DNA of 64,000 nt, from positions 124,001 through 188,000 of the forward strand of contig JAHBUH010000006.1 of NCBI GenBank assembly GCA_019638185.1. The letters are read 5' to 3'. The position numbers and the translations under genes were made by a program. Shown in pieces: positions 5,007-62,889 of this stretch; positions within the stretch are counted from its first letter, which is position 1; each line of letters starts with the position of its first letter. The notes beneath the pieces were generated by a model that was not told where the DNA came from, did not search any database, and saw only the letters and a program-made list of their open reading frames with translations. The stretch is from Leadbetterella sp. (GTDB taxonomy: Bacteria > Bacteroidota > Bacteroidia > Cytophagales > Spirosomataceae).

Positions 5007-5548
5007 TGAAAATAGAAATTATATCCGGCAGCCCGCGCGAGGCCAGCATCACAGTCCGTATTGCCAAACACCTGCACGGCATTTTGAAAGAAAAAGAGGG
5101 AATAGAAACAGGGCTGATCGACGTCAGAGACTATGCCCTGCCCTTTGTACAGAAAGTATGGACCACTCCGGAGAAGGTGCCGGCCGAATTTAAAGAACTG
5201 GGTGACCGTATGTTTTCAGCCGATGCCTTCATCCTGGTTTCCCCGGAGTACAACGGGGGCTATTCTCCTGCCCTGAAAAACCTGCTGGATCACTTCCCCA
5301 AACAGAGCCATAAGGTCTTTGGTATTGCCACGGGTACAGACGGAGCCCTGGGAGCCATGCGCTCGGCCCAGCAGCTGGTGCAGCTGGTGGCGGCACTTTT
5401 TGGTGTCCTGAGCCCGCAGTTGCTCATCACACCCCATGCCGACAAGAAGTTTGATACCGAAGGGCATCTTTTGGAGAAGGATTTTCAAAAATCTATCGAT
5501 ACATTTGTCAGTGAGTTTTTATGGCTGGCAAAGAAGATATATACATAA
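5006..5548 (+). CDS. NADPH-dependent FMN reductase family protein
   Basis: This is a 180-residue flavodoxin-like oxidoreductase. The N-terminal IISGSPREAS loop (about residues 4-13) would bind the FMN phosphate. SPEYNGGYSPALKNLLDH (about 79-96) is the characteristic signature of the FMN_red family (azoreductase/ChrR/YieF type), which reduces quinones, azo dyes or flavins with NAD(P)H. The start codon overlaps the stop of the ceramidase-like gene (TAATGA), indicating translational coupling. The physiological acceptor cannot be told from the sequence. Confidence 0.85.
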   Translation: MKIEIISGSPREASITVRIAKHLHGILKEKEGIETGLIDVRDYALPFVQKVWTTPEKVPAEFKELGDRMFSADAFILVSPEYNGGYSPALKNLLDHFPKQSHKVFGIATGTDGALGAMRSAQQLVQLVAALFGVLSPQLLITPHADKKFDTEGHLLEKDFQKSIDTFVSEFLWLAKKIYT

Positions 5549-5567
5549 AATTTTAAACTTGAAAAAA

Positions 5568-6839
5568 ATGAATCTGTTTTCGTTGATCCTGTTTTTTGTT
5601 TCATTCTGCAAGGCACCGCAGGATGCCCCGAAGCCTCTTCCGGAAAATTGGGAGGCCATTCCTTTACAGGGAAACGGCTGGTTTTGTCACCCCTCAGCGG
5701 AGGGCCAGCAGAAGTTTGGTAAGAACGGCCTGCAGGGCTGGGCAGCCGCTGACGGTGATGCCTGCGTGTATTTCAGTGTTAATACCACCGGGGCGGTTCA
5801 GCTGGGCCTGAATGCCAAAGGCACGGGGGAAATCTCCGTCACCCTGAACGGCGAAACCCGTAGTGTGAAGGTAAGCGGGCAGGATTTTACGAAGATCGCG
5901 GCCGGGGCTTTTAAGGTAAAGAAGCCGGGCTACCAGACCGTAACCCTGCAAACTAAAGGCGGCGTGGATATCACTGATCTGCTGGTACAGGGCGATGCCC
6001 TGAAGCAGGGACTCACTTACGTAAAAGACGATTTCTACTGGGGCAGAAGGGGGCCTTCGGTTCACATGAAGTATGAAATGCCGGAAGATAAAGACTTCCG
6101 GTGGATTTATAATGAGATCACCGTTCCGGAGCATAATGACGTTATAGGAAGCTATTTTATGGCTAACGGCTTCGGTGAGGGGTATTTCGGTATCCAGGTA
6201 AATTCGGGAACGGAAAGGCGGATCCTGTTTTCCGTATGGAGCCCCTTTAAGACCGATGACCCCAAGAGCATCCCGGAAGACCAGCGTATTGTGATGCTGA
6301 AAAAAGGTGAGGGCGTAAATACGGGCGAGTTTGGTAACGAGGGCAGCGGCGGCCAGAGCTACAAGCGTTTTAACTGGAAGGCCGGCAATACCTACCGTTT
6401 CCTGACCCGGATAGAGCCTTCTTCCGTACAGGGAAGCACCGAGTATACCGCTTACTTCTTTGCCCCGGAAACCGGGAAATGGGAGCTGATCGCTTCATTC
6501 CGGCGGCCGGCTACGGTTACGTACGCCAAGCGTTTCCACTCTTTCCTGGAAAATTTTGTTACCGGTACGGGGCATATCCGGCGCGAAGTAGCGTTTTCTA
6601 ACCAGTGGGCGTGTGATACCAAAGGCGCTTGGACAGAGCTGACCAAAGCCCTGTATACGGCCGATGCCACCGCGCGCAAGGGGAACAGGATAGACTACGC
6701 CGCCGGCGTGAAAAACGGGAAATTCTTCCTGGCCAACTGCGGGTTTTTCTCCCCCAATGTGCCGTACGATACCGGTTTTGAGAGAAAGGCCGGTGGCACC
6801 GCGCCGGTGATAAACTTTGCGGAGATTGAGAAGCTCTGA
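5568..6839 (+). CDS. secreted DUF3472/DUF5077-type protein
   Basis: The reading frame extends upstream to 5436, but the ATG at 5568 is chosen. It follows the FMN-reductase stop by 19 bp and is the only start that gives an N-terminal signal peptide (hydrophobic residues 3-13). A Cys at residue 14 could be a lipidation site, although the VSFC box is imperfect. The 423-residue product looks like a DUF5077 beta-sandwich (about 30-145) followed by a DUF3472 domain (about 150-420, with FYWGRRGPSVHM near 158-169). These domains occur in secreted, probably carbohydrate-binding proteins of Bacteroidota. No catalytic residues are recognised and no enzymatic function is assigned. Confidence 0.7.
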   Translation: MNLFSLILFFVSFCKAPQDAPKPLPENWEAIPLQGNGWFCHPSAEGQQKFGKNGLQGWAAADGDACVYFSVNTTGAVQLGLNAKGTGEISVTLNGETRSVKVSGQDFTKIAAGAFKVKKPGYQTVTLQTKGGVDITDLLVQGDALKQGLTYVKDDFYWGRRGPSVHMKYEMPEDKDFRWIYNEITVPEHNDVIGSYFMANGFGEGYFGIQVNSGTERRILFSVWSPFKTDDPKSIPEDQRIVMLKKGEGVNTGEFGNEGSGGQSYKRFNWKAGNTYRFLTRIEPSSVQGSTEYTAYFFAPETGKWELIASFRRPATVTYAKRFHSFLENFVTGTGHIRREVAFSNQWACDTKGAWTELTKALYTADATARKGNRIDYAAGVKNGKFFLANCGFFSPNVPYDTGFERKAGGTAPVINFAEIEKL

Positions 6840-6941
6840 GAACCTTTCGTGGTTTCCTGGTGCCGCTTGTAAAGTTTTGAATCCCGGGAGAAACTGCGTA
6901 ACTTTAGGTTTTGTTTTGTTAGAAAATAATTAAATAAACAA

Positions 6942-7649
6942 ATGATTGGATTAGTAATTATTGGTGTTGTTTTCATGATCATCGGTTCCATTGTTTCCAG
7001 CCGGTTGAAAAGTAAGTTTGCCCAGTATTCGCAGGTCGGGCTTTCTAACGGCCTCAGCGGCGAGGCCATAGCCCGGAAAATGTTGAACGATAACGGGATA
7101 TATGACGTACAGATCACGCAGGTAGACGGCCAGCTGACCGACCACTATAACCCGCTAAACAAAACCGTGAACCTGAGCTCAGACGTATACCACGGCCGCA
7201 GTGCGGCCTCTGCCGCCGTAGCCGCCCATGAAGTGGGCCACGCCGTGCAGCACGCCCAGGCCTACGCTGCGCTGAAAATGCGTTCCGCCATGGTACCGGC
7301 CGTAAACATCGCCTCCCGCGTCATGGGTATGGCCAATATGTTCCTGATGTTTGGGGGTATCGCCATGCTGTCTCAGAATAACTCCATGGGTAACGTGTTG
7401 CTGATCGTGCTGATCGTGGCTAACCTGGCCCTGGCGCTGTTTGCCCTGATTACCCTGCCGGTGGAATTTGACGCCAGTAAGCGCGCCCTGAACTGGATGG
7501 AAACCCGTAACGTAGTTTCCCAGCGCGAGCACGCCATGGCCAAAGACGCCCTCAAATGGGCCGCCATGACCTACGTGGTAGGTGCCGCCGCCGCCATGGC
7601 AAACCTCATGTATTTTGTGATGATGTTTTTGGGGCGGAGGGAAAACTAA
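6942..7649 (+). CDS. YugP-type neutral zinc membrane metallopeptidase
   Basis: The 235-residue protein has an N-terminal membrane helix (about 2-18), a zinc-binding HEVGH motif at residues 96-100 inside AAHEVGHAVQHAQ, and two or three further hydrophobic helices (about 123-175 and 205-228). This matches the YugP/putative neutral zinc metallopeptidase family, integral membrane proteases with unknown substrates. It is monocistronic by spacing: 102 bp separate it from the preceding gene and a repeat-rich spacer follows. Confidence 0.85.
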   Translation: MIGLVIIGVVFMIIGSIVSSRLKSKFAQYSQVGLSNGLSGEAIARKMLNDNGIYDVQITQVDGQLTDHYNPLNKTVNLSSDVYHGRSAASAAVAAHEVGHAVQHAQAYAALKMRSAMVPAVNIASRVMGMANMFLMFGGIAMLSQNNSMGNVLLIVLIVANLALALFALITLPVEFDASKRALNWMETRNVVSQREHAMAKDALKWAAMTYVVGAAAAMANLMYFVMMFLGRREN

Positions 7650-59916: not shown

Positions 59917-60165
59917 TCATACTCCGGGCTCCTGCCTGTTCAGCCTGATGTCTTTGCAGATGTATTCCAGCAGGTGGCAGGGATCTTCGTGAATGGCTTT
60001 TGCTAAGATGTAGATCTCGTCAGCCCGCATTTTCAGGCAGTCTTTTGAGGCGAATTCACTGATCCGGTTAGGGCGGATTCCCGTGGCACGGGAAAGTGCG
60101 GCCTGGTTAATGGCCTTGCGGTCAAGATACCTTCCGAAACTTGTCCTGTGGTTCCTGTTGCTCAT
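59917..60165 (-). CDS. short XRE-family helix-turn-helix regulator
   Basis: The 82-residue protein consists almost wholly of a Cro/C1-type helix-turn-helix: FGRYLDRKAINQAALSRATG (about 10-29) with recognition region IRPNRISEFA, then MRADEIYILAKAIHEDPCHLLEYI. It is divergent from the 57-residue ORF/sigma/TnpB-like operon across 119 bp that contain two direct copies of AATCGATAT (about 60178 and 60253). It may therefore regulate that operon as well as itself. Confidence 0.75.
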   Translation of the reverse strand: MSNRNHRTSFGRYLDRKAINQAALSRATGIRPNRISEFASKDCLKMRADEIYILAKAIHEDPCHLLEYICKDIRLNRQEPGV

Positions 60166-60284: not shown

Positions 60285-60458
60285 ATGCAGATCGAGATCC
60301 TACTGAAAGAACCCGTCCGGTACCGTGAAGCCCTCTTAGGATTATTGAAAGCGGTGGAAGTGAAAGACCTCACCGGAAAACTGGCAGAAGAAGTAAAGCT
60401 TATTTACCAGCTGATGGACCTGATCGAGACCCGGATCAGGGCGGCTAACAGCGGCTGA
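60285..60458 (+). CDS. 57-residue helical protein, first gene of the sigma/TnpB-like operon
   Basis: This ORF starts at ATG 60285, 13 bp after an ACAGGA word, and ends at TGA 60456-60458, 41 bp before the sigma-factor start. The product is highly charged and predicted helical (YREALLGLLKAVEVKDLTGK; ELIYQL-like KLIYQLMDLIETRIRAA) with regular Leu spacing suited to a coiled coil. Codon use and G+C match the downstream genes. I recognise no family. Position makes it a candidate accessory subunit of the sigma/guide-RNA complex. Confidence 0.55.
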   Translation: MQIEILLKEPVRYREALLGLLKAVEVKDLTGKLAEEVKLIYQLMDLIETRIRAANSG

Positions 60459-60499
60459 TGCTTTAGCGGTGTGTACACTATACTAAACTCTGACATAAC

Positions 60500-61339
60500 A
60501 TGATGACCTTGGAAAACATTTATCTTGAAAAATTAAAGAAGGGCGATGAGGCGGGCCTGTCCTGGTTTTACGGACATTTTTACCGCTGGTATGCCTATCG
60601 CGCTTATCGGTATATCCGCGAAGACCTGGATGCCCATTGCATAGCGCAGGAGGCTTTCCTGCGGCTGTGGATCTTCCGGGAGAGCATTGAAGACGTACCG
60701 CATCTGCACCGGTTTATCAGCCGGCAGGTGACCGAGGCGGGAAAGGCGTATCACCGGAAACGGAGCAACCAGTTTCGCCGGCAGCTGCTCTGGTTTTTTG
60801 ATTATGAAGATCCGGAGGGCCTGCTACCGGGAAGTTCCCCGGAGTGGGCGGAAGAGCCGCTGCTGGAGATCGAAGAGCCGGATGAGCAGGATTCGGAGCG
60901 GCTGGAAGCGCTGAACAGGCTGCTGCCTCACCTGGACGGCGAACAGCAGCTGTTTATCCGGCTTTGCCTGAAGTATGATTTTAACTATGAGCGCATAGCC
61001 TTTTACCTGGGCGGTATCCGGGAGTACGAGGTGGCTCAGCGGGTGGAGAAGTGCATAGACCGGCTGAAAAGCCTGCTGGCTGACAGCCGGAAGCTTTCAG
61101 AGGTGACGCGTACGCATACGTTCCGGGTAGACCGTCAGCTGAGCCCCGAACAGGCGGATATCCTGAGGCTGCGGTATGAGCTGGGAAATTCCTTTGAAGA
61201 GATCGCGGCCGGCCTCCACCTGACCCCGGAAAAAGTAAGAACCCTTTTTATTCAGGCATTCACCATTATTAAAAGTAGTAAGCATGGAAAAAATTATCCT
61301 CACACGAAGGGTGCAGCTGATCATCAACTCCAGGGATAA
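60500..61339 (+). CDS. ECF-like sigma factor with two sigma4-like segments
   Basis: The 279-residue protein is much longer than the usual 160-200 of ECF sigma factors. Residues 15-90 resemble sigma region 2 (FYRWYAYRAYRYIREDLDAH, QEAFLRLWIFRESIEDV, HLHRFISRQVTEAGKAYHRK). An acidic linker spans about 100-135. Residues 136-195 resemble region 4 (LLPHLDGEQQLFIRLCLKYD, NYERIAFYLGG), and a second region-4-like helix-turn-helix follows at about 212-260 (LSPEQADILRLRYELGNSFE, EIAAGLHLTPEKVRTLF). It would recruit RNA polymerase core. The TnpB-like gene starts 56 bp before its end, indicating a tightly coupled pair. No anti-sigma gene is adjacent. Confidence 0.8.
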   Translation: MMTLENIYLEKLKKGDEAGLSWFYGHFYRWYAYRAYRYIREDLDAHCIAQEAFLRLWIFRESIEDVPHLHRFISRQVTEAGKAYHRKRSNQFRRQLLWFFDYEDPEGLLPGSSPEWAEEPLLEIEEPDEQDSERLEALNRLLPHLDGEQQLFIRLCLKYDFNYERIAFYLGGIREYEVAQRVEKCIDRLKSLLADSRKLSEVTRTHTFRVDRQLSPEQADILRLRYELGNSFEEIAAGLHLTPEKVRTLFIQAFTIIKSSKHGKNYPHTKGAADHQLQG

Positions 61340-62372
61340 GGAGGTGCTGAAGACGTATTATGACCAGATGTACGAGTACCAGCGCCTGGTCTGTTACGCA
61401 GCCAATATGATCAATACCCACCTGTTTCTGCAGGACAGGCTGAGAGACCTGGTGTACCTGACCACGGAAACGAAGGTAAAGCTGGCGGATGCCATGAAAG
61501 ACGAGGACGGGATCCTGACCACTTCCCACATGAATTCTATCTACCGGCTGCTCAGTGCTAATTTTCTGAAGCTCCTGCCGTCTTCCACCCTGAGTAACCT
61601 TAACCAGGCGCTTTACCGCACGTACCAGAGTAACCGGGAGGTGTACTGGCGGGGGGAGAAGTCGATGCCGAATTACCGGAAGGATATTCCCATCCCTTTC
61701 AGTAACCGGGATATGACGCTTCACGAGGAAGAGGGCGGCAAAAACTTTACGTTTACCCTCTTTAAGATCCCGTTTAAGACCTACCTGGGGCGCGACCGCT
61801 CCGGTATGCGTATGATCCTGAGGAAGATAGCTAACGGTGAGCTTCCTCTACGCCAGAGCGCTATCCAGATGAAGAATAACAAGATCTACCTGCTGGCCAG
61901 CCTGGAGGCGGAAAGGCAGCGTTCGGAACCGGACCCGTCGCTGATAGCGGAGGTGTCGCTTTCCATGGAGTACCCGCTGGTGGTGAAGATCGGGCGGGAG
62001 GAGTTCCAGATCGGGAATAAGGAAGAGTTTTTATACCGCCGGCTGTCCATCCAGGCGGCCCGCCGGCGCCTGCAGATCGCCGCTACCTGGAACAAGGGCG
62101 GGAAGGGAAAGAAAAGGAAGCTGAAGAGCCTGGAAAATTACAGTGAGAAGGAGAAGAATTATATTGAGTCGAGGCTCCACCTGTACAGTCGCCGGCTGAT
62201 AGACCACTGCCAGCGGGCGGGGGCGGGAACTATCCTGCTGGTGAACCAGTCGTATAAGGAGGAGGTAGCCAAAGGAGATACCGTTCTGCTGCGCAACTGG
62301 AGCTATTACGGGCTCAAAACGAAGATTGCGTATAAAGCAAAGTTAGCCAACATCCTGCTCATGGAAGAGTAG
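61284..62372 (+). CDS. TnpB/Cas12f-like RNA-guided protein with inactivated, truncated RuvC domain
   Basis: The 362-residue protein keeps the TnpB/Cas12f layout: helical start (LTRRVQLIINSRDKEVLKTY), wedge-like KNFTFTLFKIPFKTYL and QSAIQMKNNKIYLLASLE (about 192-208), then RuvC regions. The RuvC-I segment normally reads GIDLG; here it is EVSLS (223-227), with Ser225 in place of the catalytic Asp. RuvC-II normally reads IVxED; here it is TILLVNQS (316-323), lacking the Glu. The bridge-helix-like RRLSIQAARRRLQIA and WSYYGLKTKIAYKAKLANI are retained, but the protein stops at 362, before the CxxC zinc finger and the third catalytic Asp. It should bind guide RNA and DNA without cutting. It overlaps the sigma gene by 56 bp and is followed by the putative guide-RNA locus. 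No transposase gene or element end is seen. Confidence 0.82.
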   Translation: MEKIILTRRVQLIINSRDKEVLKTYYDQMYEYQRLVCYAANMINTHLFLQDRLRDLVYLTTETKVKLADAMKDEDGILTTSHMNSIYRLLSANFLKLLPSSTLSNLNQALYRTYQSNREVYWRGEKSMPNYRKDIPIPFSNRDMTLHEEEGGKNFTFTLFKIPFKTYLGRDRSGMRMILRKIANGELPLRQSAIQMKNNKIYLLASLEAERQRSEPDPSLIAEVSLSMEYPLVVKIGREEFQIGNKEEFLYRRLSIQAARRRLQIAATWNKGGKGKKRKLKSLENYSEKEKNYIESRLHLYSRRLIDHCQRAGAGTILLVNQSYKEEVAKGDTVLLRNWSYYGLKTKIAYKAKLANILLMEE

Positions 62373-62399
62373 TTAAGATATGCTGGATTAGTATGAGGA

Positions 62400-62498
62400 G
62401 GTTGTCCGCACAACCGGATGCTGAGGCGCAAGCACTCGGCAAGTAGCTAACACTACATGCGGGTAAGGCGTGAGAAACTTTTCGCTTTAATTCAGAGA
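62400..62498 (+). ncRNA. putative guide RNA: structured scaffold plus candidate guide
   Basis: Starting 27 bp after the TnpB-like stop: GGTTGT/ACAACC hairpin (62400-62415); GCTGAG/CTCGGC stem extended by GC/GC and capped by a GCAA GNRA tetraloop (62420-62440); GTAG/CTAC hairpin (62443-62456); then TGCGGGTAA and a terminal GAAAC (62474-62478). TnpB and Cas12f scaffolds are encoded next to the protein gene and end just before the 3' guide. The guide would then be TTTTCGCTTTAATTCAGAGA (62479-62498). The first seven of these bases can also pair with GCGTGAGAA, so the boundary is uncertain. Confidence 0.6.
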
Positions 62499-62537
62499 GG
62501 CCGGGGCGCGCCGCTGCAGATGCCGCGTGCAGAAGGA

Positions 62538-62776
62538 ACCCGCAGAGAAGGATACTACCGCTCTGCGGGTAATCCCGGCAGGGGGAGGTGTTTGGAGTGA
62601 TCCGGTGAGGATGGCCCGGGTAGGTTACGATTTTCCATTCTGCGGGTAATGCCCGGCAGGAGGAGACGTTTGGAGTGATCCGGTGAACGTGCACCGGGTA
62701 GGGCGCGATTATCCTTTGCTAAAGGGTTTATGGCAGGGTGATCCGGTCGGCTGCGGGTAATGCCCGGTAGGGAAAC
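62538..62776 (+). ncRNA. tandem structured RNA modules downstream of the guide scaffold
   Basis: Hairpin type 1 occurs three times: CTGCGGG-loop-CCCGGCAG at 62563-62581 and 62640-62659, and at 62751-62770 with CCCGGTAG, where a G-U pair replaces G-C. Hairpin type 2, ATCCGG/CCGGGT, follows the first two copies (62600-62621; 62678-62699 with an extra T-A pair and a different loop). The word TTTGGAGTGATCCGGTGA is identical at 62591-62608 and 62669-62686, and GTGATCCGGT recurs at 62738-62747. The last module ends GGGAAAC, like the scaffold end at 62478, giving a second possible guide from 62777. Preserved pairing argues for a functional RNA. Confidence 0.55.
62563..62770 (+). repeat. three spaced copies of a 20-bp palindromic unit (periods 77 and 111 bp)
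   Basis: CTGCGGGTAATGCCCGGCAG and variants start at 62563 (one base shorter in the loop), 62640 and 62751 (one C-to-T change). The first two copies extend into a roughly 77-bp tandem duplication with about 80% identity. A degenerate TGCGGGTAA also occurs at 62458 in the scaffold. Confidence 0.8.
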
Positions 62777-62866
62777 AAAAAATCTTTTGGGGCTGATCGT
62801 ACAGCCTTAGGGTGAGGTCAGAGACACTCATTAAGTACAGAGCATGTGGTGCATACGGTGTGTCAC

Positions 62867-62889
62867 GTCGTTTCATTTTGTGAAACGGC
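62867..62889. terminator. hairpin closing the guide-RNA region
   Basis: GTCGTTTCA (62867-62875) pairs with TGAAACGGC (62881-62889), including one G-U pair, around a TTTTG loop. It lies between the rightward RNA locus and the convergent phosphatase gene and may terminate one or both, although no long T-tract follows. Confidence 0.4.

Follow-up and report, generated by a model that had tools for sequence, protein, structure and literature searches.

Results

A sigma factor gene overlaps the gene of a predicted nuclease-dead Cas12f homologue

We analysed a 64,000-nucleotide stretch of a Leadbetterella sp. genome (assembly GCA_019638185.1, contig JAHBUH010000006.1, positions 124,001 to 188,000 of the forward strand; hereafter the window), in which the gene for an extracytoplasmic function (ECF)-type sigma factor overlaps the gene for a predicted nuclease-dead Cas12f homologue (dCas12f) and is followed on the same strand by two predicted guide RNAs, a combination that points to RNA-guided initiation of transcription. 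An earlier note, made from the letters of this DNA, had described the coupled pair and its 56-bp overlap, and the open reading frames (ORFs) at 60500–61339 and 61284–62372 agree with that description.

The sigma factor (60500–61339, plus strand; 279 amino acids, aa) was assigned from RpoE of Protein Data Bank (PDB) entry 9n9q and from the family TIGR02937, which it matched over residues 29–192 with E = 3.3e-14, as expected from the earlier description of a sigma-factor-like protein. Residues 10–260 align to residues 7–253 of RpoE (9n9q chain C) with E = 1.9e-29, a region-4 match lies at residues 213–254 (Pfam E = 9.3e-9), and Sigma70_r2 scored under its Pfam cut-off (18 versus 24 bits). The presence of two region-4 parts had been proposed to mark a distinct variant; the alignment with the 9n9q RpoE covers both, and the proposal does not hold.

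The dCas12f gene (61284–62372, plus strand) encodes 362 aa, of which residues 6–359 align end to end with residues 8–362 of 9n9c, named 'Nuclease-deactivated Cas12f' (E = 1.6e-105). The protein also matches another Cas12f, 9nzo (E = 9.8e-41). Active TnpB and Cas12f nucleases have an intact RuvC Asp-Glu-Asp triad; in the window protein the first two residues are replaced and the region of the third is absent. In the 9nzo alignment VDLG at the first RuvC site becomes VSLS (Asp to S225) and MER at the second becomes LVN (Glu to V320), the Asp and Glu of 9nzo presumably being catalytic, and the match stops where 9nzo continues for 94 residues. None of the 12 aligned rows had Asp or Glu at the two positions. 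The loss of the RuvC residues and of the C-terminus, both reported in the earlier note, is thus seen in the alignments as well. The match to NF040570 was at family level, with 77.4 bits against a cut-off of 100, and 13 database relatives (P0002–P0014; 78–89% identity) are every one exactly 362 aa long.

Two predicted guide RNA scaffolds follow the dCas12f gene

Guide RNA scaffolds of relatives share a stem-loop, GG(N)TG/CA(N)CC, followed by a stem, GTGAG/CTCAC, a third short stem and a tail close to ATACAAC. We built a covariance model, R1, from 19 such scaffolds, leaving out the window sequence. Over the 15 pairs of the 19 scaffolds 94.9% of 275 cells were paired, whereas sliding the partner columns lowered pairing to at most 51.4% every time, and the covariation score exceeded that of all 500 shuffles. 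Searching 10 kb of the window (54–64 kb) with cmsearch and filters off, R1 found a scaffold at 62398–62463 (plus strand; 31.1 bits, E = 3.7e-7) and a second at 62789–62859 (plus strand; 54.7 bits, E = 1.3e-13), with the next match at E = 3.7. Scaffold 2 is nearer to the family consensus than scaffold 1, and its tail, ATACGGT, is the equivalent of ATACAAC in relatives. Over 825 kb scaffold 1 had E = 3e-5, and a faster search of the whole own genome, in which 150 of 942 candidates were scored, returned scaffold 2 as sole match (E = 5.3e-11) and missed scaffold 1. The 425-nt stretch 62376–62800 also outperforms its shuffles in folding (z = −2.77, 0 of 100), so that the structured RNA locus predicted 3′ of the gene is recovered both by R1 and by folding.

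An Rfam scan of the window gave no result, and across three examined stretches the Bacteroidota promoter motif TAnnTTTG turned up once, in antisense orientation. Scans for sigma-70-like promoters and for terminators came close to shuffled sequence (4 versus 2.7 and 3 versus 3.0, respectively).

A GC-rich repeat block (62499–62788, plus strand) lies between the guide RNAs. It holds 66 nt twice at 80% identity, a 21-nt unit with TGCGGGTAAT three times and a strong hairpin at 62500–62590 (fold z = −3.39). The block looks like a scaffold tail with a guide-like end, yet it fails R1: as further guide RNAs it was rejected, there being no R1 match up to E = 5 with filters off.

The guides probably begin where the scaffold model ends

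In most flavobacterial relatives the sequence directly after ATACAAC is GCGTGGGCTCTCTTATT. Searching 12 flavobacterial genomes with GTGGGCTCTCTTATT at up to one mismatch gave 19 matches in 10 genomes, against 0 for the reversed control; these comprised 10 guide RNAs, 6 sites with one conserved element and 3 others. Because this guide with genomic matches directly follows ATACAAC, the guide begins at the end of the model, and the guides of the window would therefore start at 62464 and 62860. Guide 1 (62464–62478, plus strand; TAAGGCGTGAGAAAC) consists of 15 nt kept in the same-genus orthologue L003: 15 of 15 positions are identical, then 3 of 12, while 45 of 69 aligned columns (65%) agree between the two scaffolds. 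Guide 2 (62860–62874, plus strand; GTGTCACGTCGTTTC) follows the scaffold 2 tail, its length of 15 nt being set by analogy with guide 1.

These starts displace both guides proposed earlier, since 62479–62498 begins 15 nt after the likely start of guide 1 and 62777–62796 sits ahead of scaffold 2 and runs into its start. The earlier positions could be kept if the system were the same and the scaffold 15 nt longer here, ending in GAAAC, with guide 1 starting at 62479. Such an extension is rather unlikely. It would suit the identity of TAAGGCGTGAGAAAC in two species, which is scaffold-like behaviour given that no target stood out in either genome, and in 278 kb of own DNA the earlier second guide had 12 non-self matches at 3 mismatches, slightly above the 2–10 of eight shuffles, though R1 rejects the position. 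The earlier first guide, in contrast, had 12 non-self matches in the same DNA, within the 4–25 of its shuffles and hence no excess. The added stretch, moreover, does not follow scaffold 2 of the same locus, and the flavobacterial guide directly follows the homologous tail. In genus g34 of the same family TGGGTT follows 17 scaffolds, 9 of which share the 15 nt TGGGTTAGCTTAATT before most of them differ, and the letters of TGGGTTAGCTTAATT are not those found in the window. We therefore retain guides that begin at the model end.

The pair and its predicted guide RNAs occur at many related loci

A search of the protein database found 1054 related proteins at E ≤ 0.001. We assembled 105 related loci, 80 from named genomes and 25 from further relatives; because a frame break split L066, the adjacency scan had 106 matches from 105 loci. 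A sigma factor ORF adjoins the dCas12f gene in 97 of the 105, and in L056 and L060 it lies about 0.4–0.75 kb upstream. The remote relatives L166–L168 (26–33% identity) are without a sigma gene. A match was found in 17 of 222 genomes of the own family, and none was found on plasmids (by tblastn) or viral contigs. Named relatives of dCas12f at 81% identity, and of a small ORF upstream of the pair, are Leadbetterella.

R1 was applied to a first set of 76 sources, namely 73 of the 105 loci, the window and two stretches repeating the window and L003 loci; the 19 training scaffolds of R1 come from this set. There were 142 matches (3 of them duplicates), and 71 of 74 distinct sources were matched, the exceptions being L069, L165 and L168. 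The remaining 32 loci gave 57 matches. At least two matches were present in 35 of the 71 matched sources, and several guide RNAs per locus are thus ordinary in the dCas12f family, which removes the multi-module RNA as a sign of a separate variant. In Pedobacter cryoconitis (L045) ten matches stand in a row downstream of dCas12f (5299–7085), two of them with the same guide.

The window dCas12f shares up to 56% identity with Parapedobacter relatives but no more than 45% with those from another genus in its own family, a hint of transfer between families.

Likely target sites in flavobacterial relatives lie upstream of transporter genes and of the operon itself

The six flavobacterial target sites (L099, L100, L105 and L106 on the minus strand, L101 and L107 on the plus strand, each around position 1500) share one conserved element of about 100 nt. 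Downstream of the L105 site lies a gene for a TonB-dependent receptor with plug domain, and downstream of the L101 and L107 sites are ORFs, cut at the locus end, that start like a TonB-dependent receptor (weak matches of 22 residues). The L099 site, which belongs to the same locus as L083, is followed by the sigma-dCas12f operon itself; in L083 coordinates the element is located near 5030, and the sigma gene that it precedes is at 5199. At L106 a sigma gene lies about 1.1 kb downstream, and the L100 site has no downstream ORF of 75 aa or more. The position of the element upstream of the operon in L083, and also at L106, suggests self-control. The likely targets in relatives are thus susC-type transporter genes and the operon itself.

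Within the element, the protospacer strand is common to two mutually exclusive hairpins, with 78 of 78 cells paired in the upstream and 144 of 148 in the downstream hairpin. A T-run follows the downstream hairpin in most copies, resembling an antiterminator/terminator arrangement. Covariation was weak, 22 and 86 of 500 shuffles scoring equally high, and Rfam over 7 loci had no match for the element, only a tRNA. At this element, guided initiation might circumvent an attenuator or act on it.

Neighbouring genes of the locus

A small ORF of 57 aa (60285–60458, plus strand) is the first gene of the likely operon. Its protein had no match in Pfam or NCBIfam; six proteins share 74–98% identity with it, the first probably being the window's own cluster. 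Searched with the window protein alone, homologues appeared in L003 (E = 7.6e-7), L156 (E = 0.0012) and L170 (E = 0.0054); since a profile of the small ORF included the L003 protein, only the single-protein score of L003 is independent. Close relatives thus keep the ORF, and two loci from another genus of the family show weaker conservation of it. It too had been suggested to set the system apart, and a distinct variant is not supported on this ground either.

On the minus strand, divergent from the operon, lies a gene for an 82-aa Cro/C1-type helix-turn-helix (HTH) protein (59917–60165; PF13443, E = 9.4e-5, 23 bits versus a cut-off of 22). Homologues occupy the same place in L003 (E = 1.9e-28) and stand beside the small ORF in L170 (E = 1.1e-15), and the HTH protein is likely a controller of the operon. 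The same-genus locus (genome G008; L003, L151) is syntenic with the window, with gltX-like, peptidase-like, HTH, small ORF, sigma and effector genes in common. Its sigma and effector genes overlap by 50 bp, and a susC-type gene lies downstream.

Discussion

In the solved entry 9n9q both proteins of the window have homologues that are partners, and the kind of system is thus already known. Very probably the locus consists of a dCas12f, a sigma factor and two guide RNAs that place RNA polymerase at guide-matched DNA to start transcription. The dCas12f would bind an RNA whose 3′ end is the guide, open the matching DNA without cutting it and hold the sigma factor there, such that polymerase starts downstream. 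By analogy with relatives, the outputs may be susC-type nutrient transporters and control of the operon itself. The earlier note had offered RNA-guided placement of the sigma factor as its interpretation, and the idea is now well supported by the 9n9q partners, by the fit to R1 and by the flavobacterial guide sites upstream of susC-type genes. Whereas the RNA-guided sigma system is known, the map of two predicted guide RNAs is new.

Biology has come to know RNA-guided initiation of transcription only very recently; structures were released in December 2025. The locus shows where guides are likely to start, and it shows that a 15-nt guide can be retained across species even as its scaffold diverges. 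Model R1 is applicable to any genome.

Several observations weigh against this interpretation, the main weakness being the absence of an outstanding target for either guide. In the own genome, the 15 nt of guide 1 had 4 non-self matches at up to 2 mismatches versus 7 for the reversed control, and those of guide 2 had 2 versus 8; with 18 nt of guide 2 and up to 3 mismatches there was 1 match versus 1. In the same-genus genome G008, the control gave 126 matches at up to 3 mismatches and the guide 97, its own site included, and the single site with 1 mismatch lies inside an ORF. Nothing in 40 susC-like upstream regions rose above shuffled guides. Beyond the targets, only 2 of 10 genomes of the genus, the own one counted, have a match and 8 are without the gene. 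L042, L062 and L068 are without a sigma gene within reach; these are possible sigma-free users. At L062 (5656–5753) and L068 (5524–5621) a guide RNA match occupies the place where the sigma gene would sit.

Among the seven own-genome sites, five lie inside longer ORFs, one (L211) is past the 3′ end of a gene and one (L090, G000:C25:10532) is intergenic. Over the first 19 nt of guide 2, L090 agrees at 16 and differs at positions 2, 4 and 7. A DapA-superfamily gene begins 113 nt beyond the end of L090, and an aldehyde dehydrogenase gene comes next. L090 is the sole candidate target site, and a weak one that does not exceed its control. Searched with a 19-nt pattern of the L003 guide, G008 gave no match but the guide itself and the own genome gave none. 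The null result may reflect an incomplete assembly (the own one is 95% complete), targets with more mismatches or the alternative guide boundary considered above. In the own genome, a susC-type gene at G000:C36:26394–29309 is matched in two pieces, one with an internal TAA.

The same target searches could mean that the locus is decaying, with proteins intact and guides that no longer match a promoter. This is unlikely: the lack of targets above controls, the irregular repeat block that splits the two guide RNAs and the patchy occurrence in the genus would fit decay, while all three reading frames are open, the 13 database relatives at 78–89% identity keep exactly the same length and guide 1 is kept in another species. 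An RNA-guided repressor with a merely cotranscribed sigma gene, like the TldRs, which are nuclease-dead, RNA-guided TnpB repressors (Wiegand et al. 2024, as given in PMC13418256), would share the loss of nuclease residues. Yet the effector has its nearest solved relative in a dCas12f whose entry also contains RpoE (356 bits, versus 68 for 9nzp, the top-scoring chain named TnpB), and the sigma gene adjoins at nearly all related loci, making a TldR-like role very unlikely. An ordinary IS605-type TnpB or active Cas12f nuclease is hardly conceivable, since the family-level NF040570 match that would favour it falls under the cut-off and is set against two replaced RuvC residues, an absent C-terminal part and aligned rows all without Asp or Glu there. 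We also give little credence to a three-protein branch, in which the 57-aa protein would control the sigma-dCas12f pair and the two guides, one conserved between species and one of the system's own, would switch two gene sets on a signal read by the HTH protein. As an extension of this reading, should the conserved guide truly have no counterpart in the genome of either host, the system might lie in wait for incoming DNA and activate genes of an arriving element.

Comparison with known systems

We found no literature that treats dCas12f with sigma factors, judging by title or the start of the abstract, and the part of review PMC12857756 that was searched does not treat the dCas12f-sigma system. 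In the PDB, entries 9n9c, 9n9m, 9n9o and 9n9q represent such a system, with titles that refer to complexes of dCas12f-gRNA and of dCas12f-gRNA-DNA; 9n9q has the same dCas12f sequence as 9n9c and holds RpoE besides, and 9n9c and 9n9m were released on 2025-12-24. We take these four entries to be the Flagellimonas dCas12f-sigmaE RNA-guided transcription system, and we assume that the 9n9q complex contains RNA polymerase and starts transcription.

TldRs are not known to act with a dedicated sigma factor. Like the window dCas12f they are nuclease-inactivated relatives of TnpB that are RNA-guided and serve gene regulation (PMC13418256); unlike it they are repressors derived from TnpB, and the passages of PMC13418256 consulted mention no sigma partner.

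Closer likenesses were found in Parapedobacter, Sphingobacterium and Pedobacter loci (among L004–L082), whose effectors are 45–56% identical to that of the window. In most the sigma gene adjoins, and they share the scaffold family and often have several guide RNAs. Unlike in the window, many Sphingobacterium loci have guide RNA matches upstream of the effector gene, and Pedobacter cryoconitis has up to 10 matches.

The scaffold tails of the window, ATGCGGG and ATACGGT, differ from ATACAAC in flavobacterial relatives, and the window has two guide RNAs separated by 325 bp that include a repeat block, whereas L083 has a single R1 match. Compared with the PDB system, the window has a more diverged sigma gene and the extra 57-aa ORF. 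The two proteins are nevertheless homologous to those of the PDB system over nearly their whole length, the effectors being of 362 and 365 aa, respectively, and the gene order of sigma factor, dCas12f and guide RNA in the window is that of flavobacterial relatives such as L083.

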